This document shows, in pieces, positions 2-24,552 of a stretch of DNA of 36,950 nucleotides. The DNA is from Gemmatimonadota bacterium (GTDB lineage: Bacteria > Gemmatimonadota > Gemmatimonadetes > Longimicrobiales > Gaopeijiaceae). The stretch spans positions 1-36,950 of the forward strand of contig VXQO01000049.1 in assembly GCA_009838975.1 (NCBI GenBank), given 5' to 3'. The notes under the pieces are model-generated. The model saw only the letters and a program-made list of their open reading frames with translations. It was not told where the DNA came from and searched no databases. A program made the position numbers and the translations under genes. The first letter of the stretch is position 1. The number at the start of each line of letters is the position of its first letter.

Positions 2-958
2 GCGGTCGACTCGGCAGGGTTGGTGACCGCGGCGGGCGTCGGCGAAACGACGATCACCGCGACATCGGGCGAAGCATCGGGCGAAGCGGTGGTGTCCGTG
101 ATGCACTCGGCGGGTTCGGTCGTCGTGTCGCCGACGGCGGACACAATCGCACCAAGCGACACGCTACGGCTGGAGGCGAAGGCGTTCGACGCAAACGGGC
201 ACTTGGTCGTAGATGCGGAGTTCACCTGGTCGTCGAGCGACGCCGGAGTGGCTCGGGTAGACGGATCGGGACTGGTCACGGCTGTCGCCGAGGGCACGGC
301 GGCGATCACGGCCACGTCGGGAGACGCCCGCGGCACGGCGGAGATCACTGTGCAGAACCAGGACCGGGCTGCGCTGGTGGCGCTTTACCATGCCACGGAC
401 GGACCGAACTGGGTGAACAACGAGAACTGGCTGACGGATGTGCCGCTGAGGGATTGGTACGGAGTAAGTACGGATGGTTCCGGGCGGGTCGTTCGTCTTG
501 ATCTCAGCGGCCGGTGGGACCGCGAGGCGCAAGTGTACACGCCCCATGGGCTCAGCGGTCCGATTCCGCCCGAGCTCGGCAACCTCGCCAACCTGACACA
601 GTTGAACCTCGAACACAATCAACTCGCCGGCCCGATCCCGGCCGAACTCGGCAACCTCGCCAGTCTGAGGTGGCTGTACCTCAGGGGCAACCAACTCACC
701 GACGCGATCCCGTCCGCACTCGGCAGCCTCGCCAACCTGACGCGGCTGTACCTCGGGGACAACCAACTCACCGGCGCGATCCCGTCCGAACTCGGTAGCC
801 TCGCCAACCTGATGTCGCTTGCCATCGCGCGCAACGACCTCACCGGCGCGATCCCGTCCGAGCTCGGTAGCCTCGCCAACCTGACAGATCTGTGGCTCTG
901 GGCCAACGACCTGAGTGGCGCGATCCCGCCCGAACTCGGCACACGTCTTCCAGTGTAG
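2..958 (+). CDS. BIG2-LRR surface protein, 5' piece of a gene split by IME-1 (open at window edge)
   Basis: The frame is open from the first bases, so the true start lies upstream of the window. The visible protein has the end of one bacterial Ig-like (BIG2) domain, a second complete BIG2 domain, an LRR N-terminal cap (DRAALVALYHATDGPNW) and about six plant-type LRRs of the PELGNL..L..L.L..N.L.G.IP type. The family is normally exported and adhesive or protein-binding. The last LRR stops abruptly: after PPELG the codons come from the end of IME-1, which adds five residues (TRLPV) and a TAG. The missing remainder, more LRRs plus a metalloprotease, resumes in the same phase at 8267. As it stands this half could make a truncated LRR protein without the protease. 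Confidence 0.9.
   Translation, partial: AVDSAGLVTAAGVGETTITATSGEASGEAVVSVMHSAGSVVVSPTADTIAPSDTLRLEAKAFDANGHLVVDAEFTWSSSDAGVARVDGSGLVTAVAEGTAAITATSGDARGTAEITVQNQDRAALVALYHATDGPNWVNNENWLTDVPLRDWYGVSTDGSGRVVRLDLSGRWDREAQVYTPHGLSGPIPPELGNLANLTQLNLEHNQLAGPIPAELGNLASLRWLYLRGNQLTDAIPSALGSLANLTRLYLGDNQLTGAIPSELGSLANLMSLAIARNDLTGAIPSELGSLANLTDLWLWANDLSGAIPPELGTRLPV
926..941 (+). repeat. attL core of IME-1 inside an LRR codon block
   Basis: The 16 bases CCGCCCGAACTCGGCA encode the PPELG part of an LRR and recur identically at 8267-8282. The two copies are 7341 bp apart, a multiple of three, and lie in the same LRR reading phase. Recombination between them would remove the element and rejoin the host gene in frame. 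The exact crossover within the 16 bp cannot be read from sequence alone. Confidence 0.85.
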
Positions 959-1086: not shown

Positions 1087-1097
1087 AAGTGATACAC
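1087..1097 (+). promoter_or_regulatory. Candidate integrase arm-type site, left end of IME-1
   Basis: AAGTGATACAC occurs here and again in the same orientation at 8182-8192 near the right end. Versions differing by few bases lie in the corresponding places in IME-2, and one upstream of the IME-3 integrase. Tyrosine integrases of this class bind repeated arm sites at both ends; assigning that role here is inference. Confidence 0.45.
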
Positions 1098-1115
1098 CAT
1101 AAGGAAGGAGACACC

Positions 1116-2270
1116 GTGAAGCGACCGAGGACACTATCCGCCGCGTTCGTGCGGACGGTCAACCGGCCCGGCGTCTACGGCGACGGGCGGGGCGGTCGCG
1201 GACTGAGCCTTCGCGTCCACCGGACACGGGATGGCCGGATCACCAAGACATGGCGTCAGCGCGTCAGGATCGAGAGACGGCTGACCTCGATCGGACTTGG
1301 ACCGTATCCCGAGGTGACGCTCGCCGAAGCCCGGCAAAAGGCATTGGACAACAGCCGGGGCGTCCTCTTGGGCCAGGACCCGCGTGGGCGCGGCATCCCG
1401 ACGTTCGCCGAGGCCGCCGAGCGGACGATCAAGCTCCACCGCGAGTCTTGGAAGGCCGGGAGTCCGCTTCCCGAGCAGTGGGAGTCCACCTTCCGCCTTC
1501 ATGCCGCCCCGCTCCTCGACAAGCGGGTGGACCGGATCGAGAGCGCGGACGTGCTCGCGTGTCTCGCGCCGATCTGGAACTCGAAGCCCGCAGCGGCGCG
1601 GAAGGCCCAGCACCGGATCACCGCCGTCTTCCGCTGGTGCATCGGTCGAAACTACCGGGCGGACAACCCGGTGGACCGGGCGGTCGTTGCGCTGCCGAAG
1701 GCGAACGGCCACACGACAACGCACCACCGGGCGCTCCCGCACGGAGAGGTCGCCGCCGCGCTCCGAGCGGTTCGCCGGACCACCGACACGCACCCTTCGG
1801 CGGCTCCGTGCGTCGAACTGATCGTCCTCACCGCCGTTCGTCCCGGCGAAGCGCGGGGCGCGCTCTGGGACGAGATCGACGTGGACGCGGCGACGTGGAC
1901 GATACCGGCATCCCGGATGAAGGCGGGCCGCGAGTTCACGGTCCCGCTCAGCCCCCCCGCGCTCGATGTGCTCGAACGGGCGCGCAAGCTGTCGGGCGAA
2001 TCGCCGCTGGTGTTTCCGTCGCGGACCGGCGGACCGCTGCCGCCGAAAGCGCCGCTCAGGGTGCTCAAGCGGGCCGGGGTCGCCTCGACGCTGCACGGAT
2101 TCCGGTCGAGCGCCCGGTCGTGGATGGCCGAGTCGGGCGTCCCGGCAGAGGTCGCGGAGGCCTGCCTTGCCCACGTCCCGAGAAGCCAGGTCGTTCAGGC
2201 GTATCAGCGATCCGACCTGCTGACACGCCGGGCCGAAGTCATGCAGGCATGGGGCGAGTACCTCGGGTAG
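1116..2270 (+). CDS. int: P4-type tyrosine integrase of IME-1
   Basis: This site-specific recombinase would integrate and excise the element. The 384-residue protein has an N-terminal arm-binding domain of the DUF4102 type (about 1-90; GRGLSLRV and SIGLGPYPEVTLAEAR are typical), a core-binding region, and a catalytic domain with Arg242 (TAVRPGEAR), the HxxR box His327-Arg330, His353 and the nucleophile Tyr363. GTG at 1116 is chosen because AAGGAAGGAG sits just upstream; the frame is open a little further but without a ribosome site. P4-type integrases usually use tRNA genes, whereas here the flanking core is LRR coding DNA. By eye it is about 90% identical to the IME-2 and IME-3 integrases. 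Confidence 0.95.
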   Translation: MKRPRTLSAAFVRTVNRPGVYGDGRGGRGLSLRVHRTRDGRITKTWRQRVRIERRLTSIGLGPYPEVTLAEARQKALDNSRGVLLGQDPRGRGIPTFAEAAERTIKLHRESWKAGSPLPEQWESTFRLHAAPLLDKRVDRIESADVLACLAPIWNSKPAAARKAQHRITAVFRWCIGRNYRADNPVDRAVVALPKANGHTTTHHRALPHGEVAAALRAVRRTTDTHPSAAPCVELIVLTAVRPGEARGALWDEIDVDAATWTIPASRMKAGREFTVPLSPPALDVLERARKLSGESPLVFPSRTGGPLPPKAPLRVLKRAGVASTLHGFRSSARSWMAESGVPAEVAEACLAHVPRSQVVQAYQRSDLLTRRAEVMQAWGEYLG

Positions 2271-2838: not shown

Positions 2839-3150
2839 ATGATGACCGAGAACCCGAGGAACGAGAGAACGAACCCACCGATCCGCTTCCTGCGGCTGCC
2901 CGAGGTGATGAAGCGCACGGGCCTGTCGCGTAGCACGATCTATGTCCGGCTGGCCGAGGGGCGCTTCCCCCGGCCCGTCGCCCTGGGCGGGCGCGCCGTG
3001 GGCTGGATCGAGGCTGAGATCGAGGAGTGGGTCGCCGAGCGGATCGCCGAAAGCCGATCCGTGGGCGGGCGGGCCGGTGAGCGCGTCGAGGCCGCGCACC
3101 GGATCCCCGAGGCCGGTTGGCGGGCGGCGGAGACCCGCCCGGTCCGATGA
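2839..3150 (+). CDS. alpA: AlpA-family regulator/excisionase (IME-1)
   Basis: A 103-residue protein with a textbook AlpA winged-helix domain at about 15-70: RFLRLPEVMKRTGLSRSTIY, then VRLAEGRFPRP and a WIEAEIEEWV ending. AlpA proteins regulate P4-type integrases or act as recombination directionality factors. It follows the small HTH gene by 45 bp and probably shares its transcript. The C-terminal tail (about 75-103) is low in conserved features. Confidence 0.92.
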   Translation: MMTENPRNERTNPPIRFLRLPEVMKRTGLSRSTIYVRLAEGRFPRPVALGGRAVGWIEAEIEEWVAERIAESRSVGGRAGERVEAAHRIPEAGWRAAETRPVR

Positions 3151-3189: not shown

Positions 3190-3249
3190 CTTGCCTTGGG
3201 GAGGCAAGCCAGCGTACCCCGTGTAGGACACGGGGGCTGGCGAGGGGAT
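3190..3249 (+). other. Candidate oriT of IME-1 (nested inverted repeats upstream of mobC)
   Basis: The region has CTTGCC-N7-GGCAAG (3190-3208), then GCCAGC (3208-3213), a hairpin CCCCGTGT-AGG-ACACGGGG (3217-3235) and GCTGGC (3236-3241) closing an outer stem, followed by GAGGGG. The same design is found before mobC in IME-2 and IME-3 with paired base changes that keep the stem. ColE1-type relaxases nick in a CTGG^CTTA-like sequence, and each element has CTGG-C(A/G)AGGGG just after the hairpin. The nic position is inference. Confidence 0.65.
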
Positions 3250-3303
3250 GGCGCTGCCCCCCTTCGAACCCCAACAACATCCGCGCGCCGCTGGGGCGCG
3301 CGG

Positions 3304-3435
<132 letters not shown>

Positions 3436-3463: not shown

Positions 3464-3802
3464 ATGAGCGGCCGCCGCCCCGCAACCGTCTCCGCCCGCG
3501 TGTCGGCGGCCGAACTCGCCGACTGGCGGGCCAAGGCCGCGGCCGCCGGCGTCCCGCTCTCGGCGCTCGTCCGGGAGGCCATGGCCCGCACGCGCACATG
3601 GACCGCCCCGGCGGCCGAGGTCGAGCGCGAGCGCACGAAGCAGGTCGCCCGCATCGGCAACAACCTGAACCAGATCGCCCGGTGGGTGAACACCCACAAG
3701 GCGGCCATCGAGGCCGTCGAGGTGATCGTCCACCTGATCGCCGTCGAGCGGGCGCTCCGCGCGCTGGCTCCGGTCGAGAGCCCGCACGCCGATGCTCGTT
3801 AA
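3464..3802 (+). CDS. mobC: MobC-type relaxosome accessory protein (IME-1)
   Basis: A 112-residue protein with an N-terminal ribbon-helix-helix-like part (TVSARVSAAELADWRAKAAA) and the MobC family signature IGNNLNQIARWVNTH at about 66-80. MobC proteins bind oriT and help the relaxase open the nick site. ATG at 3464 is chosen because the homologues in IME-2 and IME-3 start at the same place; further upstream is the G/C homopolymer. The gene overlaps mobA by 11 bp (GATGCTCGTTAA), indicating translational coupling, and lies directly after the candidate oriT. Confidence 0.92.
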   Translation: MSGRRPATVSARVSAAELADWRAKAAAAGVPLSALVREAMARTRTWTAPAAEVERERTKQVARIGNNLNQIARWVNTHKAAIEAVEVIVHLIAVERALRALAPVESPHADAR

Positions 3803-5321
3803 GTTCCTCGCGCACGGAACCGGGTCGGCCCGCAAGGCGGCCAGGTACCTCCTCGGGGAGCTTGACGCAGCCGGGAACGAGCGTGAGGGCGTCGAGGTGC
3901 TCAGGGGAGACCCCCACCAAGTGGCCGCCGTGGCCGATACGCTCCCCTTCGACCACAAGTACACCTCCGGCGTGATCGCGTGGGCGCCGGAGGACGAGCC
4001 GACCGAAGAACAGATCGAAGCCGTCCTCGACGAGTTCGAGAAGACGGCGTGGGCCGGGCTCGAACCCGACCGCTACGCATGGGCGGCGGTGCTGCACCGC
4101 GAGAAGGATGGCGGAGCGCACGTTCATGTCCTTGCCGCCCGATGCGACTTGGAGACCGACCGGAGCCTCAACATCGCACCGCCCGGCTGGGAGAAGACGT
4201 TCGGCGCGCTTCAGGACGCCTTCAACCACGAACACGGCTGGAGCCGGCCGGACGATCCGGCGCGGGCCAGGGTGCAGCAGCCCGGACACCGCGCCTACGT
4301 CGAGGCCGCCCAGCTGAGGGCCGGGCTCCGGCTCGAAGCCTCCCCACGCGACCTGATCCGCGACTACCTGATCCAGCGCGTGGAGCAAGGCGCGGTGCGC
4401 GATCGCCACGAGGTCGTCGCCGCGCTCCGGGAGGCGGGGCTTGAAGTGCCCCGCCAAGGCATGGACTACCTAACCGCGCTGGACCCCGAGACGGGGAAAC
4501 GGTGGCGGCTGAAAGGAGAACTGTACGGAGTTGATTTCCAACGCGAACGACTTGACCGAGCGGCTGCGGAAGAAGTTGGAGACCGAGCGCAGGGAGATCG
4601 AGGAGTTGACCGCGGACGAGCTCGAACGGCTCGCCGGGAACTCGCGGCGCGCCGTGAGATACGCGCTGCGTACCATCAGGCGCGATACGGAGGAGGCAAC
4701 AGGGCGGATGCGCGAGTTGCTGATGAAGGGTTGGATGAGGCCCCTGATCGTCGGCCTGAGCCTCTCGCTCGGCACCTTCGGCGGAAGCTGGGCGACGATG
4801 CGCTGGCTGTCGAGGAGCATCCACACCCGGATCGAGACCCGCGCCGAACTGGGCCGGGACATCGACGACGCCCGGCGGACGCTCGCCCAACTGGAGGTGG
4901 ACACCTGGGGGCTCGTGTTCCACGAGATCAAGGGCGAGCGGTTCGTCGTGGTGCCGGACGGGGTGCTGGACCGTCCGCCATGGCGGGTGGACGACCGTCC
5001 GGCCTTGAAGCTGTCGAACGAGTGAGGAGGCTGTATGAGCGCGTTAGAGGGGCAGTTGACGAGGGCCTTGCGGAGGTTGTCCGTGCAGTACGAGCGGGAA
5101 CAGCGGCGGCACTCCGAACAGGTCGAGGCCTTGCGGCGGCAAGTCGAGCGGCAGACCGGGGAGAACGCCACCTTGAGGCGGCGAATCGAGCGGCTCGACG
5201 AGCAAGTGACAGGCTTGACCGAGTACTACGGGACATCTGGCGCCGCGAGACCGCGCGGCCACGGCTGGTGATAAGGCCACCGACGCACGGGCCGGAGCGC
5301 GATGCCGGACCGAGCCGCTGA
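3792..5321 (+). CDS. mobA: ColE1/MbeA-like relaxase (IME-1)
   Basis: A 509-residue relaxase that would nick oriT and lead the strand into a helper conjugation channel. The N-terminal 230 residues align with ColE1 MbeA: VKF.AHG.GS, YLLG with Tyr19 at the known nucleophile position, REGVEVLRGDP, KYTSGVIAWAPED, N..HGWS..DDP and ETGKRWRLKGELY. In place of the MbeA His-Glu-Asn metal site it has His102, His110 and His112 (HREKDGGAHVH), the three-histidine form of other relaxases. From about residue 245 the sequence is Arg/Ala-rich and its codons are shared with mobB and mobD in another frame. Total length is close to that of MbeA (about 517). Confidence 0.93.
   Translation: MLVKFLAHGTGSARKAARYLLGELDAAGNEREGVEVLRGDPHQVAAVADTLPFDHKYTSGVIAWAPEDEPTEEQIEAVLDEFEKTAWAGLEPDRYAWAAVLHREKDGGAHVHVLAARCDLETDRSLNIAPPGWEKTFGALQDAFNHEHGWSRPDDPARARVQQPGHRAYVEAAQLRAGLRLEASPRDLIRDYLIQRVEQGAVRDRHEVVAALREAGLEVPRQGMDYLTALDPETGKRWRLKGELYGVDFQRERLDRAAAEEVGDRAQGDRGVDRGRARTARRELAARREIRAAYHQARYGGGNRADARVADEGLDEAPDRRPEPLARHLRRKLGDDALAVEEHPHPDRDPRRTGPGHRRRPADARPTGGGHLGARVPRDQGRAVRRGAGRGAGPSAMAGGRPSGLEAVERVRRLYERVRGAVDEGLAEVVRAVRAGTAAALRTGRGLAAASRAADRGERHLEAANRAARRASDRLDRVLRDIWRRETARPRLVIRPPTHGPERDAGPSR
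4531..5025 (+). CDS. mobB: MobB/MbeB-like mobilization protein nested in mobA (IME-1)
   Basis: A 164-residue protein wholly inside mobA in another frame. It has a charged helical N-terminus (1-60), one membrane segment at about 69-92 (WMRPLIVGLSLSLGTFGGSW), and a C-terminal WGLVF...GERFVVVPDG block typical of MobB proteins. Homologues in IME-2 and IME-3 start with ATG; here that codon is ACG (4524-4526) and TTG at 4531 behind GGAG is the best start. In ColE1 the corresponding protein stabilises the relaxosome and links it to the membrane. Conservation of protein sequence across elements shows it is a real gene, not a shadow of mobA. Confidence 0.87.
   Translation: MISNANDLTERLRKKLETERREIEELTADELERLAGNSRRAVRYALRTIRRDTEEATGRMRELLMKGWMRPLIVGLSLSLGTFGGSWATMRWLSRSIHTRIETRAELGRDIDDARRTLAQLEVDTWGLVFHEIKGERFVVVPDGVLDRPPWRVDDRPALKLSNE
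5035..5271 (+). CDS. mobD: MbeD-like coiled-coil mobilization protein nested in mobA (IME-1)
   Basis: A 78-residue, almost fully helical protein (MSALEGQLTRALRRLSVQYE) with heptad-like Leu/Val spacing, like MbeD of ColE1, which is also 78 residues and also lies in another frame inside the relaxase gene. It begins 9 bp after mobB with a GAGGAGG ribosome site. Its role in transfer is known only by family; MbeD-type proteins are accessory and linked to entry exclusion or efficiency. Confidence 0.82.
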   Translation: MSALEGQLTRALRRLSVQYEREQRRHSEQVEALRRQVERQTGENATLRRRIERLDEQVTGLTEYYGTSGAARPRGHGW

Positions 5322-5339: not shown

Positions 5340-5416
5340 GCGGGATTTCTCGTGTCTTCTCGGTGACGGCGTTATCATTGCTTAGGGCGATGCCGTTGGT
5401 AGATCGAATAGGAGCG

Positions 5417-5908
5417 ATGGACACCCGTACGGAAGAGCAGCGTCGGCGCATCATGCAGGCGGTCAGGAGCCGGGACACCGGTCCCGAGATGCTCGTCCGA
5501 CGACTCTTGCACCGCTTTGGCTACAGATATCGGCTGCATCGCACGGATCTTCCTGGGAAACCCGACATCGTCTTCGGGTCCCGGCGCAAAGTGATCTTCG
5601 TCCACGGGTGCTTCTGGCACTCGCACGGGTGTTCCAAGGGGCGTCTTCCGAAGTCTCGCCTTGAATTCTGGAGACCGAAGCTCCTCGAAAACAGCCGCCG
5701 CGACGGTCGAAACGAGGAAGCGTTGCGCGCACTGGGATGGAACGTGCTCGTGATCTGGCAGTGCGAGACCAGCGACCTCGAAGCCTTGTCCCAACGCCTA
5801 CTGCGCTTTCTGGGTGACAGGAAGCTCCAATCGCCTCGCAGAGCGACGCGCGGGAGCGTGCGCGGGCCGGATCGATCGGAAGCCATCAATCCACGCGGTG
5901 AGCCATGA
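5417..5908 (+). CDS. vsr: Very-short-patch repair endonuclease (IME-1 cargo)
   Basis: Vsr cuts beside T:G mismatches left when 5-methylcytosine deaminates. The 163-residue protein has RSRDTGPEMLVRRLLH, LPGKPDIVF with catalytic Asp50, and FVHGCFWHSHGC with His63 and His68, followed by FW..KL..N..RD and a GWNVLVIWQCE strand. ATG at 5417 gives the usual N-terminus; the frame opens further upstream but adds unrelated residues. It overlaps the C5 methyltransferase start by 4 bp (ATGA), matching its job of protecting the methylated genome. The last 25 residues are a variable tail. Confidence 0.94.
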   Translation: MDTRTEEQRRRIMQAVRSRDTGPEMLVRRLLHRFGYRYRLHRTDLPGKPDIVFGSRRKVIFVHGCFWHSHGCSKGRLPKSRLEFWRPKLLENSRRDGRNEEALRALGWNVLVIWQCETSDLEALSQRLLRFLGDRKLQSPRRATRGSVRGPDRSEAINPRGEP

Positions 5909-7239
5909 GACCCCTCGGTATCGACCTGTTCGCTGGCGCGGGTGGCCTCAGCTTGGGCTTCGAACAGGCTGGTTTTGACGTGGCGGCGGCAGTGGAGGTC
6001 GATCCGGTGCATTGCGCCGTCCACAAGTTCAACTTCCCCGATACGGCCACGATCCCGCACCCAATCGAGACCCTCGTAGGTGCCGATATTTTGAAAGCTG
6101 CCCGCATCGACGGGCGCCGGGTTGACTGCGTGTTCGGCGGTGCCCCCTGCCAAGGCTTTTCCCTTATCGGCCATCGTGCTCTGGACGACCCACGCAACGG
6201 ACTCGTACGCGACTTCGTTCGCGTGGTCGGCGAGATCGAGCCTCGAACCTTCGTCTTCGAGAACGTAAAGGGGCTAACGGTCGGTCGGCACCGCAAGTTC
6301 CTCGACGAATTGATCCACGAGTTTTCTCGGATCGGATATGTGGTGCGAGTACCATGGCGTGTGCTCAACGCTGCGCACTTCGGGACGCCCCAGAATCGAG
6401 AACGCCTGATTCTGCTGGGTGCCCGAAAGGGTGACTCGCCGCCGGCCTACCCGGCACCCTTGACTGAGATTCCCAGCCCTCAGCAACGAATCGTGGGCTT
6501 GCCCGAGGGACCGACCTGCTCGGATGCGCTCGGGGACCTGCCGGATGTCGACGAAATCGAGGAACTGGTCGCTTCCGATTCGACAGCCATCGCCGATTTC
6601 GGCGAGCCTTCGGAATACGCAGCCCTCTTGCGGTGCCTGTCCGACCACGCTTGGCACTACGGGCATCCCCGCGAGTGGGATCCCGATGTTCTTACGTCAA
6701 GCGCTCGCACCGAGCACACAGCGATCTCGCGAAGGCGATTCCGCGATACGGAGCCCGGCACCGTGGAGCCCATCAGCAGATTCTTCAAGCTGTCGGAGCG
6801 TGGAGTCTCCAACACGTTGCGTGCGGGCACCGACGGAGCCCGCGGGGCTTTTACCAGCCCGCGTCCGATCCACTACCTCTACGACCGCTGTATCACGGTT
6901 CGCGAGATGGCCCGATTGCACGGGTTCCCCGATTGGTTCCGTTTCAATGTGACCAAGTGGCACGGAGGGCGGCAGATCGGGAACTCCGTACCGCCTCCCC
7001 TGGCACGGGCGATCGCCGGTCAGGTGATGCGCGCACTGGGCGCTACTGCCACCCGCCCGAGCGTGCCGGTCTCGCTGGGAGATCCTGGGCTTCTGTCGCT
7101 CGACCTCTCGGGTGCCGCGAAACACTTCGGCGTAGAACCGCCACCCAGCCGCCGGGACAAGAAGAGCGGTGTTCGGAAGCGTAGGCAGATCGACATCGAA
7201 CGCGAGCGCCTCAACGGGCTGGTCGGCGCGCGTGCCTGA
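5905..7239 (+). CDS. DNA (cytosine-5) methyltransferase (IME-1 cargo)
   Basis: A 444-residue type II modification enzyme. Motif I is DLFAGAGGLSLGF (7-19), motif IV is GAPCQGFS with catalytic Cys82, motif VI is ENVKGL (119-124), motif VIII is QNRERLILLG, and motifs IX-X end with RLHGFPDWF and QIGNSVPPPLARAI. All key residues are present. The region between motifs VIII and IX, the target-recognition domain, is specific and gives no recognition site by eye. It is coupled to vsr upstream and to a probable restriction enzyme 4 bp downstream. A basic tail (DKKSGVRKRRQ) follows motif X. Confidence 0.95.
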   Translation: MRPLGIDLFAGAGGLSLGFEQAGFDVAAAVEVDPVHCAVHKFNFPDTATIPHPIETLVGADILKAARIDGRRVDCVFGGAPCQGFSLIGHRALDDPRNGLVRDFVRVVGEIEPRTFVFENVKGLTVGRHRKFLDELIHEFSRIGYVVRVPWRVLNAAHFGTPQNRERLILLGARKGDSPPAYPAPLTEIPSPQQRIVGLPEGPTCSDALGDLPDVDEIEELVASDSTAIADFGEPSEYAALLRCLSDHAWHYGHPREWDPDVLTSSARTEHTAISRRRFRDTEPGTVEPISRFFKLSERGVSNTLRAGTDGARGAFTSPRPIHYLYDRCITVREMARLHGFPDWFRFNVTKWHGGRQIGNSVPPPLARAIAGQVMRALGATATRPSVPVSLGDPGLLSLDLSGAAKHFGVEPPPSRRDKKSGVRKRRQIDIERERLNGLVGARA

Positions 7240-7243
7240 GAAG

Positions 7244-8023
7244 ATGAACCGATATCAAGCCGTGATCGAGAAGGTGTTCTTCGATCACTTCGCCGAAGGC
7301 ACAACCGAGTTCCGGTTCCGCCGGGAAGAGCTTGAGGACGCGATCACCGCTCTCGGCGTCGAGCGCATCAAGAATCTGGGCGACATTACGTATTCCTTCC
7401 GGCATCGACACCCGTTGCCCGACAGTATTCTCGAAACGCAACCGGAAGGGCACGAGTGGATCATCGAGGGGGCCGGTCGGGGCCGATACAGGTTCAGGCT
7501 CGTAACGACGGCGAGCCGAATCGTGCCGCGGGACGATCTGGTCGTGATCGACATCCCCGACGCAACCCCGGAAGTAATCCGCGCCCACAAGCTCGATGAC
7601 GAGCAGGCCCTCTTGGCCATGGTCCGCTACAACCGCCTTATCGACACATTCCTCGGCATTACCGCCTATAGCCTACAGAATCATCTACGGACGACGGTCA
7701 AGGGCGTGGGGCAGATCGAGATCGACGAACTCTACATCGGGATCGACAAGCTGGGCTGCCACTACGTCATCCCCGTTCAGGCCAAGGGCGAGAAGGATCA
7801 GATTGGAATCGTGCAGCCCACCCAAGACATCCGTTTCGCAGAGCAGAAGTTCCCCGGTATGCGCTGTCGAGCCATCGCTGCACAGTTCTTGCGCGACGAG
7901 GTCGTCGCCCTATTCGAGTTGACCTTGCAGGGTGGCGAGATCAAGGTCGTGGAGGAACGTCATTACCGGCTCGTCCCAGCAGATCAACTCGACGCGGCCG
8001 CGATCAGAAAGTATCGCGCGTGA
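7244..8023 (+). CDS. Probable type II restriction endonuclease, PD-(D/E)XK fold (IME-1 cargo)
   Basis: A 259-residue protein 4 bp after the methyltransferase. The central block GQIEIDELYIGIDKLG then YVIPVQAKGEKDQ (about 157-185) fits a PD-(D/E)XK nuclease with acidic Glu159/Asp161 and a Gln179-x-Lys181 ending, a variant seen in some restriction enzymes. RYNRLIDTFLGITAYSLQNH (128-147) and EERHYRLV are further strongly patterned stretches that recall endonucleases paired with C5 methyltransferases. Position next to a methyltransferase and Vsr makes restriction the likely job. Specificity is unknown. Confidence 0.75.
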   Translation: MNRYQAVIEKVFFDHFAEGTTEFRFRREELEDAITALGVERIKNLGDITYSFRHRHPLPDSILETQPEGHEWIIEGAGRGRYRFRLVTTASRIVPRDDLVVIDIPDATPEVIRAHKLDDEQALLAMVRYNRLIDTFLGITAYSLQNHLRTTVKGVGQIEIDELYIGIDKLGCHYVIPVQAKGEKDQIGIVQPTQDIRFAEQKFPGMRCRAIAAQFLRDEVVALFELTLQGGEIKVVEERHYRLVPADQLDAAAIRKYRA

Positions 8024-8266: not shown

Positions 8267-8282
8267 CCGCCCGAACTCGGCA
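8267..8282 (+). repeat. attR core of IME-1
   Basis: An exact copy of the 16-bp sequence at 926-941. It begins an LRR in the same codon phase as the left copy. The next bases (GCCTCGGCAAC) continue the host LRR, in contrast to the element bases after the left copy. Confidence 0.85.
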
Positions 8283-11200
8283 GCCTCGGCAACTTGAGGC
8301 GGCTGTCGCTCCTTCACAACCAACTCGCCGGCCCGATCCCGCCCGAACTCGGCAGCCTCGGCAACCTGGAGTACCTGGGCCTCCACGCCAACCGACTCAC
8401 CGGCCCGATCCCGCCCGAACTCGGCAGCCTCGCCAACCTGGATGAGTTGGACCTCAGTGTTAACGCCCTCACCGGGCCGATTCCGCCTAGCCTTTTGCGA
8501 CTTGACGAGCTCCGATCCTTCCTCATCGAAGGAAATGCACTTTGCGTGCCCGGGACATCCGTTTTCGGCGCCTGGCTGCGAGCAATCGAAAACCACGACG
8601 CCGCGACGACGGCGTTCTGCAACGCGGCCGACCTGGCGGCGCTCAGGTCCCTGTACGAGGCGGCGGGCGGGACCGGCTGGATCCAGTCCGGCGGCTGGCC
8701 GGATGAAGGGTTCGTAGAGGACTGGCACGGCGTCAGCGCGGATTCACTCGGCCGGGTCACCGAACTGGATCTGGCGGGGAATGGACTCCAGGGACAACTG
8801 CCGCCGGATCTGGGCACGCTGGTTCGAATGACCGGACTGCGGATTGGCGACAATGCCCTTTCGGGTCGGCTTCCGCTGTCTCTGGCCAGGCTCTCCCTGA
8901 CAGAGTTGCACTATGCGGGCACAAGGCTCTGCGCCCCGGCCGAAGCATCGTTCCGGACCTGGTTGAACGCCATTAGGTCACACGACGGCACGGGGATCGA
9001 GTGTGCTCTGCTGTCGGACAGCGACATCCTGGCGCTGCTCTATGAAGCGACCGGGGGGCCGGACTGGTTCAACAACCGGAACTGGCTGACTGGAGCACCG
9101 CTGGCGCAGTGGTACGGCGTCCGGGTTGGTGACGAAGGCCGGGTGGTCGGTCTGATCTCGCGAAGCAACAATCTGACGGGGCCGGTACCAGCGGAACTTG
9201 GCAACCTCGATAGCCTGAGGGAGCTGGACCTAGGGTCCAACCAACTCACCGGACCCATCCCGGCCGAGCTCGGCAACCTCGGCAACTTGGAGGAACTCTC
9301 TCTCTCGAGAAACAATCTCACGGGCCCGATTCCGGCCGAACTCGGCAACCTCGATAGCCTGACGGAGCTGTCCCTCGCATCTAACCAACTCACCGGTCCG
9401 ATTCCGACCGAACTCGGCAACCTCGCCAACCTGACGAGGTTGTGGCTCTTTGGAAACGAGCTCACCGGCCCGGTCCCGGCCGAACTCGGCAACCTCGGCA
9501 AGGTCAGGTACCTGGTACTCGACAGTAACGGGCTCACCGGCCCGATTCCGGCCGAACTCGGCAACCTCGCCAACCTGACGGGGTTGTGGCTCTTTGGAAA
9601 CGAGCTCATCGGCCCGATCCCGCCCGAACTCGGCGGTCTCGGCAACCTGACGTGGCTGGACCTGACTGCCAACGGGCTCACCGGCCCGATCCCGGCCGAA
9701 CTCGGCAACCTCGGCAGCCTGGAGGCGCTTTCTCTTTCGTACAACAGCCTCACCGGCCCGATCCCACCCGAACTCGGCAACCTCGCCAACCTGAGGCGGC
9801 TGGACCTCAGTCCCAACGCCTTCACCGGCCCGATCCCGGCCGAACTCGGCAACCTGGTGAACCTCGAGGAACTGGACCTTGGCGGACACGATCTGACCGG
9901 CCCTATCCCGCCCGAGCTCGGCCGCCTGTCCAACGTGAAGCGGATGCTTCTCTGGGGCAATCATCTCACGGGCCCGATTCCGCCCGAACTGGGCGGTCTG
10001 GGCAGCGTGACCTACCTGGCCCTCGAAGGGAACGCCCTGAGTGGCTCCCTGCCTCCCGAACTGGGCAACCTTGCGGCTGTGGAGGAGCTGTTCCTGGAAG
10101 ACAACAAGCTTGAGGGTCCGGTTCCGTCCGGACTCGGCGGCATGGCCAGCCTGAGGAGACTCGGCCTGACCAACAATGCCGGGATGGAGGGACCCTTGCC
10201 AGCCGACATGACCGGTCTCCACCGGCTCGAAGCGCTGCTGGCCGGAGGCACGGATCTATGCGCCCCCTCGGACGCCGGCTTTCAGGGCTGGCTGAACGGG
10301 GTGCACAAGCGCCGTATCAGGTCCTGCGTTGAGGGCGATCCGCCGATGGCGTACCTGACCCAGGCGGTGCAGTCGCGGGACTACCCCGTTCCGCTGGTGG
10401 CGGCGGAGGAGGCGTTGCTGCGCGTCTTCGTGACGGCCCGGAATGCCGCCAGCGCGGGGATACCAGCGGTCCGGGCACGCTTCTACGTCAACGGCAGGGA
10501 GACGCACGTCGTGGACATCCCGGTCACGTCCACGCCGATCCCGACGGCGGTGGACGAGGGCAGCCTCTCGAAGTCGATCAACGCCGAGATTCCGGCGGAC
10601 GTCATACAACCGGGGCTCGAGATGGTCATCGAAGTGGATCCGGAAGGGACACTGGACGAATCCCTGGGCGTCGAGACGCGGATCCCCCAAACGGGCCGCC
10701 TGGCGGTGGATGTCCGGGCGATGCCGCTGTTCGAGCTGACGCTGATCCCGTTCGTCTGGACCCAGACCAACGACCAGTCGATCGTGGACCTCGTAGAAGC
10801 CATGGCCGCGGACCCCGAGAACCACGACATGCTCGGAGACACGCGCACGCTGCTGCCCGTTGGCACTCTGGACGTGAAGGCCCACGAGCCGGTGCTGAGT
10901 TCAAGCAACCATGCCTTCAGGATACTCCACGAGACCGAGGCCATTCGGGCCATGGAGGGAGGCAGCGGCCACTATATGGGCATGATGGCGGGGCGCGTTG
11001 AGGGCCCAGGCGGAGTAGCCGCCATCCGCGGCTGGACGGGCTTTTCGATTCCTCGCGCAAGCACCATCGCTCACGAACTCGGCCACAACCTGAGCCTCCG
11101 CCATGCGCCGTGCGGCAGGCCTGGCGCCTTGGATCTGTCCTATCCCTACTCCGACGGATTCATCGGCGCCTGGGGGTATGATTTCCGTAACGGCGGCAGC

Positions 11201-11794
11201 CTGGTGCGTCCGACCCGGCCAGACCTGATGTCCTACTGTGAGCCCGAATGGATCAGTGACTACAGCTTCACCAACGCACTGCGGTACCGGCTGTTCAACG
11301 AGGGTCGGCCCGCGGCCGCTCAGAGCCGGTCACTCCTCCTGTGGGGTGGGATCGGCACTGACAGCGTACCCTTCCTGGAGCCCGCCTTCGTGGTCGACGC
11401 CCCGGCCTTGCTTCCCGACTCCGCGGGCGATTACCGGCTCACCGGCCGGTCCGACTCTGGAGTCGAGCTGTTCTCACTGGCCTTCGCGATGCCCGAGACC
11501 GCCGATGGCGACGGAAGTTCCTCCTTCGCGTTCGTCCTGCCTGCGCGAGCCGGTTGGGACGGCAATCTGGCCAGCATCACCCTGACCGGCCCCGGGGAAT
11601 CGACGACGCTCGACGGGGACAGCGACGTCGCGATGGCCATCCTCCGCAACCCGCGCACCGGGCAGATCCGCGGCATCCTGCGCGACCTGCCCGCGGCCAT
11701 GCAGGCGGCCGCAGACAAGCAAGCGGTGCGTGCCCCGGATCTCAAGGTGCTCTTCAGCCGAGGAATCCCGGGCCCGGAGGCGTGGAAGCGATGA
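8267..11794 (+). CDS. LRR-metzincin protease, 3' piece of the gene split by IME-1
   Basis: About 1175 residues with no proper start: the frame opens at 8249 inside the element end, and the first usable codon is TTG at 8294. It holds roughly twenty 24-residue plant-type LRRs in three blocks separated by cap-like segments (LCVPGTSVFGAWL, LCAPAEASFRTWL, LCAPSDAGFQGWL), then a beta-rich region, then a zinc-protease domain. The motif HELGHNLSLRH (11072-11104) is a metzincin HExxHxxxxxH site, and LMSYC downstream can be the Met-turn. Family members are secreted or surface bound. Without excision of IME-1 this half lacks the signal peptide and BIG2 domains, so it is probably silent. Confidence 0.88.
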   Translation, partial: PPELGSLGNLRRLSLLHNQLAGPIPPELGSLGNLEYLGLHANRLTGPIPPELGSLANLDELDLSVNALTGPIPPSLLRLDELRSFLIEGNALCVPGTSVFGAWLRAIENHDAATTAFCNAADLAALRSLYEAAGGTGWIQSGGWPDEGFVEDWHGVSADSLGRVTELDLAGNGLQGQLPPDLGTLVRMTGLRIGDNALSGRLPLSLARLSLTELHYAGTRLCAPAEASFRTWLNAIRSHDGTGIECALLSDSDILALLYEATGGPDWFNNRNWLTGAPLAQWYGVRVGDEGRVVGLISRSNNLTGPVPAELGNLDSLRELDLGSNQLTGPIPAELGNLGNLEELSLSRNNLTGPIPAELGNLDSLTELSLASNQLTGPIPTELGNLANLTRLWLFGNELTGPVPAELGNLGKVRYLVLDSNGLTGPIPAELGNLANLTGLWLFGNELIGPIPPELGGLGNLTWLDLTANGLTGPIPAELGNLGSLEALSLSYNSLTGPIPPELGNLANLRRLDLSPNAFTGPIPAELGNLVNLEELDLGGHDLTGPIPPELGRLSNVKRMLLWGNHLTGPIPPELGGLGSVTYLALEGNALSGSLPPELGNLAAVEELFLEDNKLEGPVPSGLGGMASLRRLGLTNNAGMEGPLPADMTGLHRLEALLAGGTDLCAPSDAGFQGWLNGVHKRRIRSCVEGDPPMAYLTQAVQSRDYPVPLVAAEEALLRVFVTARNAASAGIPAVRARFYVNGRETHVVDIPVTSTPIPTAVDEGSLSKSINAEIPADVIQPGLEMVIEVDPEGTLDESLGVETRIPQTGRLAVDVRAMPLFELTLIPFVWTQTNDQSIVDLVEAMAADPENHDMLGDTRTLLPVGTLDVKAHEPVLSSSNHAFRILHETEAIRAMEGGSGHYMGMMAGRVEGPGGVAAIRGWTGFSIPRASTIAHELGHNLSLRHAPCGRPGALDLSYPYSDGFIGAWGYDFRNGGSLVRPTRPDLMSYCEPEWISDYSFTNALRYRLFNEGRPAAAQSRSLLLWGGIGTDSVPFLEPAFVVDAPALLPDSAGDYRLTGRSDSGVELFSLAFAMPETADGDGSSSFAFVLPARAGWDGNLASITLTGPGESTTLDGDSDVAMAILRNPRTGQIRGILRDLPAAMQAAADKQAVRAPDLKVLFSRGIPGPEAWKR

Positions 11795-11856
11795 CAAGAC
11801 AGTCCCCGCAAAGTAGGCGCCGCGCGGGAAGCGAAACGACCATGACCAGGAGTCCT

Positions 11857-12792
11857 ATGAAAAACCGCGACTGTATCCTGCTTCACCCCTTCGCGCTCAT
11901 CGCGCTGGCAACGGTGACCATATCAACCCCGCTGGGCGCCCAAACAGTTGGAGACCGCGTCCGCGTGTTCTCTGCGGGCACCGTGACCTTCGGCCGAGTC
12001 ACCGGCGTGAATGACGAAGGGTTCGAGCTCGCAAACGACGACCTGCACCTATCCTTCGCGTATCGGGACCTGGACCGCCTGGAAGAAGTGGGTGGGATCA
12101 AAACCTGGGGGTACGAAGGCGTCGTTATGGGCAGTGCTTGGGGGACACTTCTTGCTTTCAATGAAGACTTGAATGTATTTGAGGGAAGCCTCATAGGGGG
12201 CTTGTTGGGCCTCGTGTTCGGCGTGGCCTATCCCTTCTTCAGGCCCGAGGAGGCTGGCCGGTCATGGCGACCCATCTCGGTTCGCGAGTATTTCGTCCCG
12301 GTTCTCGGCGAGGAGTTCCCCTATGGTGGGCGGGTACGCGTATCGGTCGATGGTAGCGAGCTCATCGGCCGGGCCACCGCCATGACCGACGAAGGGTTCG
12401 AACTCGTCCAGGGTGGGATGCGCCGATCCTTCACCTATCGGGACATCGACGCTCTGGAATGGAGTCGTGGAATGCGATCTCGTTGGAAGACCGGGTGGGG
12501 CCTCGGCCTTCTCGGCGGGTTCATCGCCTTTCCGACCTTCAACGGGGCGTGGGGATGCGTGGCCAGCGACTGGGAGGGACCGTCCTGCGAAGAAAAGGGA
12601 CGCGACCTGTTTGCCTGGATCGGAGCAGGAGGCCTCCTGGGGCTCGGAGTGGGCACTGTTGTGTGGCGGCACGAGTCGTGGGAGTCCTTCGCGCTTCGCG
12701 ACCGGAGGCCTGATATCAGTCCCTTTGTCGCGCCGCTACGCGACTTGGAGGGACGCCACGGTCTGTTGCTGGGAGCGCGTATCGAGTTCTGA
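11857..12792 (+). CDS. Exported protein with hydrophobic segments, function unknown
   Basis: A 311-residue protein lying between the two convergent LRR-protease genes. ATG at 11857 has AGGAG just upstream; an alternative ATG is at 11842. The N-terminus looks like a signal peptide ending near PLGAQ. Two similar halves follow, each with a small beta motif: VGDRVRVFSAG...GRVTGVNDEGFEL...SFAYRDLDRLE, and GGRVRVSVDG...GRATAMTDEGFEL...SFTYRDIDALE. Each half is followed by a glycine-rich hydrophobic stretch (SLIGGLLGLVFGVAYPFF; GWGLGLLGGFIAF and GAGGLLGLGVGTVV). The duplication suggests a membrane-associated envelope protein. I do not recognise the family. Confidence 0.8.
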   Translation: MKNRDCILLHPFALIALATVTISTPLGAQTVGDRVRVFSAGTVTFGRVTGVNDEGFELANDDLHLSFAYRDLDRLEEVGGIKTWGYEGVVMGSAWGTLLAFNEDLNVFEGSLIGGLLGLVFGVAYPFFRPEEAGRSWRPISVREYFVPVLGEEFPYGGRVRVSVDGSELIGRATAMTDEGFELVQGGMRRSFTYRDIDALEWSRGMRSRWKTGWGLGLLGGFIAFPTFNGAWGCVASDWEGPSCEEKGRDLFAWIGAGGLLGLGVGTVVWRHESWESFALRDRRPDISPFVAPLRDLEGRHGLLLGARIEF

Positions 12793-12827
12793 TGGTGAAG
12801 GCACGCGCCACTCAGATGTTCCGTGGA

Positions 12828-14726
12828 TCACCGTCTCCAGGCAGTGGCATCCGGTATCCCCCGGCTGAAGATCACCTCCAGTCCCGTTCCGGCGGCGTGC
12901 CCGGTCGCGTCCATGGCCGCCTGGGTCGGAGGCTGCAGGTCCCGCAGGATGCCCCGCACCTGCCCGGTGCGGGGATCACGCAGAATGGCCATCGGGCGGT
13001 CGCTGTCACCGTCCAGCGTGAAAGACCCGCCGGGGCCGGTGAGGATGATTCGGTCCAGGTCATCTTCCCATCGGCCCCGCACCGGCAGAACGAACGTGAA
13101 GGAAGAACTCCCGTCGCCGTCCGCGGTCTCCGGCATGGTGAAGGCCAGGGAGAACAGATGGTGGCCGTCGGCGCCTCGGCCCGCGATCTCGTATTCGCCC
13201 CCGGAATCCGGCAGCGCGGCCGGTGCATCAACGACGAAGGCGGGGTTGAGGGAGGGTTCCCCTTCTGCGTCCACACCACCCCAGAGGAGGAGCGATCTGG
13301 CGCGAGCGGACACAGCCGCGGGCGCACCTTCGTCGAACAGACGATAACGGAGCGCGTTCGTGAAGCCATAGTCGCTGATCCACTGTCCTGGAAAACAGTA
13401 CGACATCACATCCGGCCTGGAGGGCTGGACCAGGCTGCCTCCATCACGAAAGTCATATCCCCAGACTCCAATGGATCCGTCCGGGTAGGGATACGAAGCG
13501 TCAAGACCTCCCGGACCGCCGCAGGGCGCGTGCCTCAGGCTCATGTTGTGGCCGAGTTCGTGGGCGATGGTGCTCGGTTCGGGAATCGAAAAGCTCCACC
13601 GACCGGACACACGGGCGATTCCCGCCGTTCCCGTAACGGGGTTTGCCATCATGCCCATGTAGTGGCCGGTCCCGCCCTCCATGGCCTGGATCGCTCTGGT
13701 TTCGCCAAACACCTGAAACCCATTGTTGCTTGAAGTCAGCACCGGCTCGTGCGCGGTCACGCCCAGGCTGCCCACCGGCATGAGCGTGCGCGTGTCTCCA
13801 AGCATCTCGTGCTTCTCGGGATCCGCGGCCATGGCTTCGACGAGATCCACGATCGCCGAGTCCTGGGTGTGGATCCAGACAAACGGGATCAGCGTCAGGT
13901 CGAACCGCGGCATGGCCCGCACATCCACGGCCAGACGGCCCGTCTCCGGGATCCGCTTTGCGACGCCCAGAGCTTCGTCCAACGTCCGCTGCGGATCCAC
14001 CTCGATCACCATTTCGAGCCCCGGCTGTATGATCTCCGCGGGAATCTCGGCGTTGGCCGATTTGGCGAGACTGCTCTCGTCCACCGCGACCGGGATCGGC
14101 GTGGACTTGCCCGGCACGTCCACGGCATGGGTCTCACGACCGTTTACGTAAAATCGGGCGCGCACGGCCGGAATGCCGATGCTGGTGGCCTGCATGGCTG
14201 TCGGGAACACGCGCAGCAAAGCCGTCTCGCCCGCGACCAGAGGAACGGGGAACGCCCGCGACTGCACGGCCTGAGTCAGATACGCGATCGGGGGATCTGC
14301 CTCGATGCAGAACCTGATACGGCGCTTGTGCACTCCGTCCAGCCAGGCTCGGAAGCCGGCGTCCGCGGGGGCGCACAAGTCGGTGCCGCTCGTAACCAGC
14401 TCTTCCAGTCGGTCGAGTTCGGTCAGCGATTGTGGCAAAGCGCCGGTCAGGCCCGCGTTATTCGCGAGCGCCAATACCTGGACGTTCGTCAAGGCTCCGA
14501 ACTCCGGCGGTACGGGACCCGAGAGGGCGTTGGACGCCAGGGACAGGAATCTCACATTGGCAAGATAGCCGAGTTCCGGCGGGAGTGGGCCCGAGAGATT
14601 CGCATTGTAAAGGTGCAGTTCTTCCAGGGCCGCGAGACCGCCGAGTTCGGACGGGATGGGGCCCGACAGATTGGTATTGTACAGACGCAGTTCTTCCAAG
14701 GCGGTCAGTTTGCCGAGTTCCGGCGG
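12828..14726 (-). CDS. LRR-metzincin protease, 3' piece of a second gene split by IME-2
   Basis: A paralogue of the protease half at 8267-11794 in convergent orientation. It has four to five LRRs, the cap LCAPADAGFRAWLDG, the beta-rich middle and a metzincin site HELGHNMSLRH (13530-13562) followed by DVMSYC. The C-terminal 500 residues are very similar to the + strand copy. The piece begins at the IME-2 right core; an ATG two codons before the first LRR codon (14730-14732) comes from the element but has no ribosome site. The upstream LRRs lie at 24603-25148 in the same phase, 9909 bp away. The signal peptide and N-terminal domains are not in the window. Confidence 0.88.
   Translation of the reverse strand, partial: PPELGKLTALEELRLYNTNLSGPIPSELGGLAALEELHLYNANLSGPLPPELGYLANVRFLSLASNALSGPVPPEFGALTNVQVLALANNAGLTGALPQSLTELDRLEELVTSGTDLCAPADAGFRAWLDGVHKRRIRFCIEADPPIAYLTQAVQSRAFPVPLVAGETALLRVFPTAMQATSIGIPAVRARFYVNGRETHAVDVPGKSTPIPVAVDESSLAKSANAEIPAEIIQPGLEMVIEVDPQRTLDEALGVAKRIPETGRLAVDVRAMPRFDLTLIPFVWIHTQDSAIVDLVEAMAADPEKHEMLGDTRTLMPVGSLGVTAHEPVLTSSNNGFQVFGETRAIQAMEGGTGHYMGMMANPVTGTAGIARVSGRWSFSIPEPSTIAHELGHNMSLRHAPCGGPGGLDASYPYPDGSIGVWGYDFRDGGSLVQPSRPDVMSYCFPGQWISDYGFTNALRYRLFDEGAPAAVSARARSLLLWGGVDAEGEPSLNPAFVVDAPAALPDSGGEYEIAGRGADGHHLFSLAFTMPETADGDGSSSFTFVLPVRGRWEDDLDRIILTGPGGSFTLDGDSDRPMAILRDPRTGQVRGILRDLQPPTQAAMDATGHAAGTGLEVIFSRGIPDATAWRR
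14714..14726 (-). repeat. attR core of IME-2
   Basis: CCGCCGGAACTCG on the minus strand, repeated at 24623-24635 in the same LRR codon phase. With the flanking element bases it forms the perfect palindrome GTTCCGCCGGAAC (14717-14729). Confidence 0.8.
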
Positions 14727-14734
14727 AACCATGT

Positions 14735-15411
14735 GAGTATTTCTAAATGACTATATATCAATGTGTTAGATAGCACAATGCAGCGTATGTACCACTTCCG
14801 ATATGCAGAAATGTGTTGGATTGAATGAGACGATATCGGAGGTCAGCAGACATAAGGCCTTCGGCAAAGCCGTGGTGGAACGGTCGGGCTGCATCCTCGC
14901 CGTAGCGATCAAGCCACATCGCGTCGGTCTCGCCCGGAGCGCCATCGAGGCGGCGGCTGAGCTGACTCCGGACAGGCCATCCGAGGGTGCTCGCCGCCCG
15001 CGAAATCCCCGTTTACGCGCTTGGCGAACCGACCATTTCGTGCCGGCACTGGGGGTCTCATCTTGCCTCTGCTCGCAGTCCCGGATGGAGGTCGAAGCGG
15101 TACGCTCCGTCAATTGCTCAGACGCCGTCGAGGGCGAACCGGATGGAGGTCAATTCCACGGCTTGGCCGAACAACTGCTGCTGAGAGCCCGCCTTCGGGG
15201 CTCGATTCGGTGTGATCCGGCTCACCTCTGACCGAAGGGTCAGCGAAGCCGTCCGCCCATCCCCGTTCGCGCCACTCCGGCGCACTCGACCGTGTCGGAG
15301 GCGGTGGCGGCGTACCGAGGGTTGCTTCTTGGCCGTCCTTGCCTGCGGCTCCCGCAACGTTGGCTATATTCCTGTTCCGAGGAAGCGATCATCGATTGGA
15401 GTTGGAGGCAA
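14735..15411. other. Right end of IME-2 and gene-free stretch
   Basis: The first 75 bp are AT-rich and hold the conserved end block (GATATGCA at 14800-14807). From 14810 to 15411 frames are open on both strands but show no recognisable domain or ribosome site. A 13-bp sequence CCGGATGGAGGTC occurs twice within 60 bp (near 15081 and 15138). The stretch may be decayed cargo and includes the upstream region of the ParB-like gene. Confidence 0.55.
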
Positions 15412-16848: not shown

Positions 16849-16856
16849 GCGCATCG

Positions 16857-17816: not shown

Positions 17817-17825
17817 GACTTGACG

Positions 17826-18260
17826 ATGACCGACACGGTCGACCGTGAGAAACGCAGCGAGATCATGTCCCGGGTGGGGAGTCGGGACACGAAGCCTGAG
17901 TTGGTTGTTCGCCGAATCGCCCACGGACTCGGGTTTCGCTACCGCCTACACGGAAAGGATCTGCCCGGCTGCCCTGACATCGTGTTTCCACGGTATCGAT
18001 CAGTCATCTTCGTACACGGATGTTTCTGGCACCGCCATCCCTCCTGCAAGTACGCGTCCACCCCGAAGACGCGTGTAGAGTACTGGGAAAACAAGTTCCG
18101 GGGCAACGTTGCTCGCGATGCGCGCAACGAGTCGCTTCTGCGCGACCTCGGCTGGAGGGTCATGGTGATCTGGGAATGCGAAATCAAGGACCGCAAGGCA
18201 GTTGCGGAACGCATCTCGTGGTATCTGAGGCCGCAGCACCTTGGAGAGACTGAAGGCTGA
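17826..18260 (+). CDS. vsr: Very-short-patch repair endonuclease (IME-2 cargo)
   Basis: A 144-residue Vsr protein with GSRDTKPELVVRRIAH, LPGCPDIVF and FVHGCFWHRH. Asp51, His64 and His69 fall at the same numbers as the catalytic residues of E. coli Vsr, and the C-terminal GWRVMVIWECEI strand is intact. It starts 9 bp after the D12 methyltransferase. An adenine methyltransferase does not need Vsr, so its likely client is the C5 methyltransferase encoded convergently at 18999-20207. It is clearly related to, but well diverged from, the Vsr of IME-1. Confidence 0.94.
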   Translation: MTDTVDREKRSEIMSRVGSRDTKPELVVRRIAHGLGFRYRLHGKDLPGCPDIVFPRYRSVIFVHGCFWHRHPSCKYASTPKTRVEYWENKFRGNVARDARNESLLRDLGWRVMVIWECEIKDRKAVAERISWYLRPQHLGETEG

Positions 18261-18372
18261 GCTCGGAGGAGATTCTGTTTGTCGGGTTCCCTCAGCCTGT
18301 TTGGGAGTCGGGCGCGTCAGCCCTCGCGTCCCGGCCCGGCATCAACGGGGCGGTGACTCCCGCTCTGCGTCA

Positions 18373-20207: not shown

Positions 20208-20355
20208 CACATCTAGAGTGTCCGAACGTCCGGTGCGTTGGCAACCCCTTGGTGGTCGGCGGCGTGCCTCGCCACAGCCACCCTACAGAAGAAAGCCGCG
20301 CGTTGCCGAGTGGTCGAGGCTGCTAGCGGTAGTGCTGTCTCTCCGCCTCAGACCA

Positions 20356-22210: not shown

Positions 22211-22312
22211 GGGCGCACCGGCGACGGGGTTCGGGGGCGTCGCCCCCGCGCGTCCGCTGCTCGTACAGCGGCGCGACAGTCCGGGGGTCTAAGGGGGCCG
22301 GAAAGCCCCCTT

Positions 22313-22347: not shown

Positions 22348-22405
22348 TGCCCGACCAAAGACGCGCCCGACAAGCTGTTCCTCGGCTGCCGCGAAGCGCG
22401 CCGCA

Positions 22406-24523: not shown

Positions 24524-24552
24524 GGGACGAACGAGCGTTGTGTATCCTACTG

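Follow-up and report, generated by a model that had tools for sequence, protein, structure and literature searches.

Mobilization regions with two genes nested inside the relaxase gene are best known from plasmids of Escherichia coli. In plasmid ColE1 (NC_001371; MOBP5, HEN), the genes are arranged in the order C-A, and mbeB and mbeD are located within mbeA. MobB and MobD have also been described as encoded internally in mobA (PMC9282650), and pAsal2-like regions, with the origin of transfer (oriT) upstream of mobC, have been assigned to MOBP5 in a paper on Paracoccus plasmids (PMC3832669). Integrative and mobilizable elements (IMEs) with a MobP relaxase are known from Bacteroidetes and Firmicutes (PMC5704250). 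Here, three mobCABD cassettes of the ColE1 superfamily are described from contig VXQO01000049.1 (C153) of a metagenome-derived Gemmatimonadota assembly (GCA_009838975.1; 4.5 Mb, 162 contigs); all 36,950 bp of the contig constitute the window analysed. Each of the three is very probably (estimated probability about 0.88) an IME with such a cassette as its transfer module.

The nested mob cassette

The genes of the three cassettes are located in the window as follows.

3464-3802, plus strand: element 1 mobC, 112 aa (NikA-like 4e-11, MobC 1e-9)
3792-5321, plus strand: element 1 mobA, relaxase, 509 aa (motif III HREKDGGAHVH; Relaxase 4e-6; NF047848 MbeA 4e-27 over residues 1-487)
4531-5025, plus strand: element 1 mobB, 164 aa, TTG start, inside mobA in the +1 frame; one apparent membrane-spanning stretch
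5035-5271, plus strand: element 1 mobD, 78 aa, inside mobA in the +1 frame (MbeD_MobD 28.0 bits, cut-off 21.6)
21869-22210, minus strand: element 2 mobC (NikA-like 9e-13, MobC 1.5e-9)
20356-21879, minus strand: element 2 mobA, 507 aa (NF047848 7e-34; Relaxase 8.5e-7)
20646-21146, minus strand: element 2 mobB, 166 aa, ATG start, nested in mobA
20421-20633, minus strand: element 2 mobD, 70 aa, nested in mobA (MbeD_MobD 31.9 bits)
28397-28735, plus strand: element 3 mobC (NikA-like 8e-15, MobC 2e-11)
28725-30248, plus strand: element 3 mobA, 507 aa
29458-29958, plus strand: element 3 mobB, 166 aa, nested in mobA
29971-30183, plus strand: element 3 mobD, 70 aa, nested in mobA

In line with the original prediction, which was made from the sequence without database searches, mobB and mobD lie fully within mobA in another frame in all three elements; this is the +1 frame of mobA. 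The protein sizes, predicted as about 112, 507-509, 164-166 and 70-78 residues, agree with the coordinates (MobC 112-113, MobA 507-509, MobB 164-166 and MobD 70-78 aa). In element 1, the end of mobC (3802) overlaps the start of mobA (3792), and a GGAGG motif at 5026-5030, straight after the mobB stop codon, provides a well-placed ribosome-binding site for mobD. The cassette had been reported as present three times. This holds for the window, with correct coordinates and sizes, but the total for the genome is five, as one further relaxase gene is located on each of contigs C52 and C40, both with a nested MobB.

MobA matches the NCBI MbeA model NF047848 over its full length (residues 1-487 against positions 1-470 of 497; E = 4e-27 in element 1 and 7e-34 in element 2), at scores that fall under the model's own exception-level cut-off of 500 bits. 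MobC exceeds the cut-offs of both the NikA-like and the MobC model of Pfam, and MobD exceeds the gathering threshold of Pfam MbeD_MobD (PF04899) in elements 1 and 2. For MobB, comparison with a profile of ColE1 and Klebsiella MbeB yielded E = 2e-14 (hhalign), a profile from a wider plasmid set yielded E = 7.5e-28, and plasmid MbeB was matched by tblastn at E = 5e-4. MobB also resembles MbeB in having an apparent membrane-spanning stretch and, at the C-terminus, a TWGVE...LP.G segment. Judged by these profile comparisons, MobB is a relative of MbeB. The predicted relationship of the nested products to MobB and MbeD was thus borne out, by Pfam for MobD and by profile comparison for MobB, though no library model names the latter. 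The designation of the cassette as ColE1-type stands with respect to the MbeA match of MobA and the homologies of MobC, MobD and MobB. Motif III, however, is HHH and not HEN in the three elements as well as in their homologs, which places them outside the HEN subgroup of ColE1 proper.

Constraint on the nested frames

The +1 frame stays open over mobA codons 247-409 in 13-38% of synonymous-codon shuffles. Because so many shuffles of this GC-rich DNA remain open, openness in a single sequence is no proof of a gene, and the figure speaks for the view that the nested reading frames are chance products of the GC-rich codon usage of mobA, with only MobC and MobA being real. The comparison of homologs points the other way. 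Among 14 divergent homologs, the pattern of variability changes at mobA codon ~240. Upstream of this codon, position 3 is about 2-7 times more variable than position 2; within mobB, position 1 of mobA, which is the wobble position of mobB, climbs to 0.36 and exceeds position 3.

Substitution classes were determined in five independent close pairs and are given as changes per weighted opportunity, with intervals in brackets. The rate of changes that are synonymous in mobA and nonsynonymous in the +1 frame is 0.051 (0.044-0.057) upstream of the overlaps, 0.017 (0.013-0.022) in mobB and 0.022 (0.015-0.029) in mobD, i.e. mobA synonymous change is 2-3 fold lower in both overlaps. Changes that create a stop codon in the +1 frame were found in 7 of 462 weighted opportunities before the overlap, in 0 of 330 under mobB and in 0 of 221 under mobD. 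Since the rate of changes silent in MobA drops and no +1 stops arise in the overlaps, both nested frames are, on these comparative data, under purifying selection. A synonymous-rate profile across the overlap had been suggested as a check of the original prediction; run here, it reveals constraint in both nested frames.

In view of this constraint, the chance explanation was rejected. It is scarcely credible given the depletion of +1 stops, the reduced synonymous rate of mobA and the move of the most variable mobA codon position to position 1, together with the Pfam score of MobD, the profile match of MobB to MbeB and the ribosome-binding site of mobD. The prediction had been staked on two properties, similarity of the nested products to MobB and MbeD and constraint in their frame, and both were found.

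Integrative carriers and the proposed transfer route

Elements 1 and 2 are inserted in leucine-rich repeat (LRR) genes and possess their own integrase and attachment (att) repeats in the chromosome.

926-941, plus strand: left core repeat of element 1, CCGCCCGAACTCGGCA, 16 nt, Pro-Pro-Glu-Leu-Gly codons of the LRR gene
8267-8282, plus strand: right core repeat of element 1, CCGCCCGAACTCGGCA, identical 16 nt
1089-2270, plus strand: element 1 tyrosine integrase (Phage_integrase 7e-19, Phage_int_M, Arm-DNA-bind_3)
2839-3150, plus strand: element 1 AlpA-type regulator, excisionase candidate (Phage_AlpA 1.5e-23)
5363-5908, plus strand: element 1 cargo, Vsr nicking endonuclease (Vsr 4e-30)
5905-7239, plus strand: element 1 cargo, C5-cytosine methyltransferase (DNA_methylase 5e-64, MTase_II 6e-168)
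7169-8023, plus strand: element 1 cargo, type II restriction enzyme (REase_II 1e-123)
about 14726-24635, minus strand: element 2, with CCGCCGGAACTCG cores at 24635 and about 14726
23288-24472, minus strand: element 2 tyrosine integrase
22406-22714, minus strand: element 2 AlpA-type regulator (arm with 91% DNA identity to the element 1 copy)
18999-20210, minus strand: element 2 cargo, C5 methyltransferase
17820-18260, plus strand: element 2 cargo, Vsr
15292-17816, plus strand: element 2 cargo, two genes with matches to defence components (PD-Lambda-5_A 5e-56 and PD-Lambda-5_B 1e-105, the latter an N6-adenine methyltransferase)
25296-26480, plus strand: element 3 tyrosine integrase (arm with 96% DNA identity to element 2)

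No cargo genes were recognised in element 3. Both CCGCCCGAACTCGGCA and CCGCCGGAACTCG encode Pro-Pro-Glu-Leu-Gly of the LRR gene. When element 1 is excised in silico together with one core copy, the LRR reading frame is restored with its 24-residue periodicity intact; likewise, removal of element 2 leaves an uninterrupted LRR reading frame in which the 24-aa period is preserved. Related genomes have LRR genes that align without a break through the junction of element 1; in genome G250, the identity is 74% over 9-462 of 464. Strict orthology is uncertain given the repeats. The cores are found again in many LRR repeats, and each LRR gene therefore offers many possible attachment sites. Near-identical integrases adjoin LRR coding sequence in three other loci (L007, L012, L083), and in further loci the cassette is accompanied by integrases of a very different kind. 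Cassette homologs also occur inside single-contig genomes, including two of the genus, which supports a chromosomal location. The direct-repeat flanks, the restored LRR frame and the single-contig homologs support the earlier statement that the cassettes sit on integrative elements. Among the genes noted in the elements, none is for replication, though a ColE1 origin (RNA I/II) was not searched for; as the elements are integrated, they are unlikely to be ColE1-like plasmids.

Element 3 is opposite in orientation to element 2 and 0.5 kb away, so that the two are mirrored around an LRR fragment of ~0.5 kb (window 14726-30250). Two back-to-back integrases around LRR sequence are also found in a related genome, G097 (positions 11000-15089 of locus L083); the mirrored arrangement is recurrent. 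Element 3 differs from elements 1 and 2 by an AlpA-like gene on the opposite strand (26477-26965, minus strand) and an S24-type repressor (27167-28000, plus strand).

A hairpin upstream of mobC is the oriT candidate in each element.

3208-3247, plus strand: oriT candidate hairpin of element 1, GCCAGC-stem-GCTGGC followed by GAGGGG
22313-22347, minus strand: oriT candidate hairpin of element 2, upstream of mobC
28259-28292, plus strand: oriT candidate hairpin of element 3, upstream of mobC

All three consist of GCCAGC, an inner stem, GCTGGC and then (G/A)AGGGG, and the hairpin of element 1 is located ~220 bp upstream of mobC. In 15 distinct homologous hairpins, 96% of cells are paired and 24 double-sided changes are found in the inner stem. 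The covariation score is 0.287, compared to 0.061 in shuffled sequences and at most 0.048 when the structure is slid. The search pattern has zero occurrences in 733 kb of shuffled loci. As this pattern fixes part of the outer stem and was used to choose the set, the real evidence is the covariation of the inner stem. Position and form of the hairpin fit an oriT of the ColE1 superfamily, with the nic site at the hairpin being putative here. Between this hairpin and mobC of element 1 (window 3303-3435), long G runs are followed by C runs, an unusual sequence that is possibly a sequencing or assembly artefact.

The elements combine a relaxase and an oriT candidate with no mating-pair or coupling genes of their own; coupling protein and VirB4 models had no match in the window, and the genes of a type IV secretion system (T4SS) are located on another contig of the same genome. 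This locus (contig C95, about 10800-26400) encodes a TraG/TrwB-type coupling protein, a VirB4-like ATPase, VirB8, TrbL, TrbI, ArdC and an integrase, and is a candidate helper, judging by its gene content. The system is divergent. The VirD4 (PF02534) and VirB4 N-terminal (PF03135) models found no match in the genome or the genus, and the idea that the genome has no helper was dropped once the locus was detected with the TraG-D_C and TraG P-loop models (PF12696 and PF19044), which have similar matches in more than half of the genomes of the genus.

The sequence supports an integrase beside an LRR core repeat, an oriT candidate, MobC, an HHH-type MobA and selected nested MobB and MobD, and from these parts we infer the following route. 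Integrase and AlpA would excise the element as a circle, with the LRR gene being restored. MobC, which belongs to a family of relaxosome accessory proteins, would assist the HHH relaxase MobA in nicking oriT at the base of the hairpin. With MbeB and MbeD as models, the membrane-anchored MobB and the coiled-coil MobD may assist relaxosome assembly and docking to a helper T4SS, possibly that of the conjugation locus on C95, which has its own integrase. A single strand would pass to the recipient, recircularise and integrate in an LRR gene there, bringing restriction or defence genes along. A wider scenario is conceivable but improbable: a large family of Gemmatimonadota IMEs might use the Pro-Pro-Glu-Leu-Gly codons of LRR genes as many equivalent att sites, with insertion, excision and recombination between copies switching the genes off and on and reshuffling their repeats, while defence genes pass between sponge symbionts by means of the ColE1-type cassette.

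Relatives of MobA occur in 20 of the 23 genomes of the genus; one genome may have them at as many as 16 places, and many of these are fragments. Of 395 genomes sampled from the phylum, 37 have relatives of MobB, and most of these belong to one family, although the weakest few matches may be due to chance. In the genus, truncation or stop codons affect many copies, broken copies are present in the single-contig genome G028, and MobB has drifted in one clade. All this would suit defunct remnants, i.e. former plasmids or IMEs that are trapped in the chromosome and no longer transfer. This is unlikely, as the three copies in the window are intact with conserved oriT candidates, copies of 94-97% identity are found in other metagenome-assembled genomes (MAGs), the cassettes are paired with different integrases and selection persists in close pairs. 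The P4-type integrase, the AlpA layout and the S24 repressor of element 3 resemble phage satellites, and the elements might accordingly be defective or satellite prophages that acquired a mob cassette and are carried mainly in phage particles. Capsid, terminase or portal genes were not noted in the elements, though not every reading frame was scanned, and the intact relaxosome with its oriT candidate argues for conjugation. Phage carriage of MobB was rejected, as MobB had no match among phage records or in IMG/VR. A prophage nature is considered very improbable.

Several observations weigh against mobilizable elements with a conserved ColE1-type cassette. MobB gave no usable match in Pfam, NCBIfam or PHROGs, and a search of the whole genome with Pfam MbeB_N found none. 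In the Palauibacter-type clade (L011-L014), MobB terminates prematurely and lacks the conserved C-terminal TWG motif, with mobA and mobD being retained; constraint on MobB is weaker there (0.031 compared to 0.038 before the overlap, with overlapping intervals), with MobD still constrained. Given the missing motif and the weaker constraint, MobB seems dispensable in this clade and hence not required everywhere. The hairpin has no clear sequence match to the oriT region of ColE1, and no right end could be located for element 3. Finally, elements 2 and 3 (20351-22198 against 28406-30253 and 23295-24635 against 25133-26473) show 78-98% identity per 100 nt over the initial part of the mob module and of the integrase, and further on long tracts are 100% identical, which could reflect gene conversion or assembly collapse.

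The host had been predicted as probably Gemmatimonadota, and its rpoB is indeed 80-81% identical to that of Gemmatimonadetes MAGs. The genome belongs to the same genus as the single-contig genome G069. Two cassette-bearing MAGs are titled Gammaproteobacteria (L006 and L018; JAPPHB01 and JAPPJO01). Their rpoB is 95% identical to that of a BD2-11 clade MAG and 71-72% identical to that of the genome studied here, to which Palauibacter is more distant (67-68%). The two are probably mislabelled, to judge from rpoB, and a transfer of the cassette into Gammaproteobacteria was rejected on the same grounds.

Comparison with known systems

The cassettes share with ColE1 the gene order C-A, homologous MbeA, MbeB and MbeD and similar protein sizes. 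As predicted, the nesting corresponds to that of mbeB and mbeD: the frame is the same +1 frame and the offsets are nearly equal, with mbeB and mbeD at +688 and +1213 nt of mbeA and mobB and mobD of element 1 at +739 and +1243 nt of mobA. ColE1, in contrast, is a gammaproteobacterial plasmid, whereas the elements described here are integrative. Its motif III is HEN (HQDKGRLELN) instead of HHH (HREKDGGAHVH), and the N-terminal part of the relaxase is only 33-34% identical.

HHH relaxases with nested B and D genes in the +1 frame are also found in plasmid regions of Aeromonas, Methylomarinovum, Acinetobacter and Citrobacter, with 46-65% identity in the N-terminal part of the relaxase. These regions differ in being plasmid-borne and, in two cases (L062, L063), in having a longer relaxase; their nested genes are mostly unannotated. 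Similarly, two cyanobacterial plasmids (L059, L060) have unannotated mobB and mobD reading frames nested in the +1 frame, with a motif III (H...ExH) that is between HHH and HEN. As the HHH and cyanobacterial plasmids have the nested pair as well, nesting is, from the reading frames compared, common to the whole group sampled and no peculiarity of ColE1. Such cassettes had been called typical of small plasmids of Proteobacteria; the host is distant, as stated, but the layout extends beyond Proteobacteria.

The nested arrangement of mobB and mobD is thus an old, selectively kept design across Pseudomonadota, Cyanobacteriota and Gemmatimonadota that serves HHH as well as HEN relaxases. It also forms the transfer module of chromosomal islands with restriction and defence genes. 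Standard annotation overlooks the nested genes: MobB of the elements has no library model match, and many plasmid records annotate neither gene. With many natural copies to compare, the roles of MobB and MobD become testable.

In the open-access literature, no report of MOBP5-type or other IMEs in Gemmatimonadota or of insertion into LRR repeats was found, although reports may exist elsewhere; the main IME review (PMC5704250) does not mention ColE1, mobB or Gemmatimonadota elements. The Bacteroides elements NBU1, NBU2, Tn4555 and Tn4399 (PMC5704250) are likewise integrated, encode their own integrase and a MobP relaxase, lack a T4SS and need a helper; unlike these, the elements described here insert within LRR coding repeats. 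Every part of the system is of a known kind, and what appears to be new is the LRR-inserted IME as carrier of the cassette, the Gemmatimonadota host and the insertion site.

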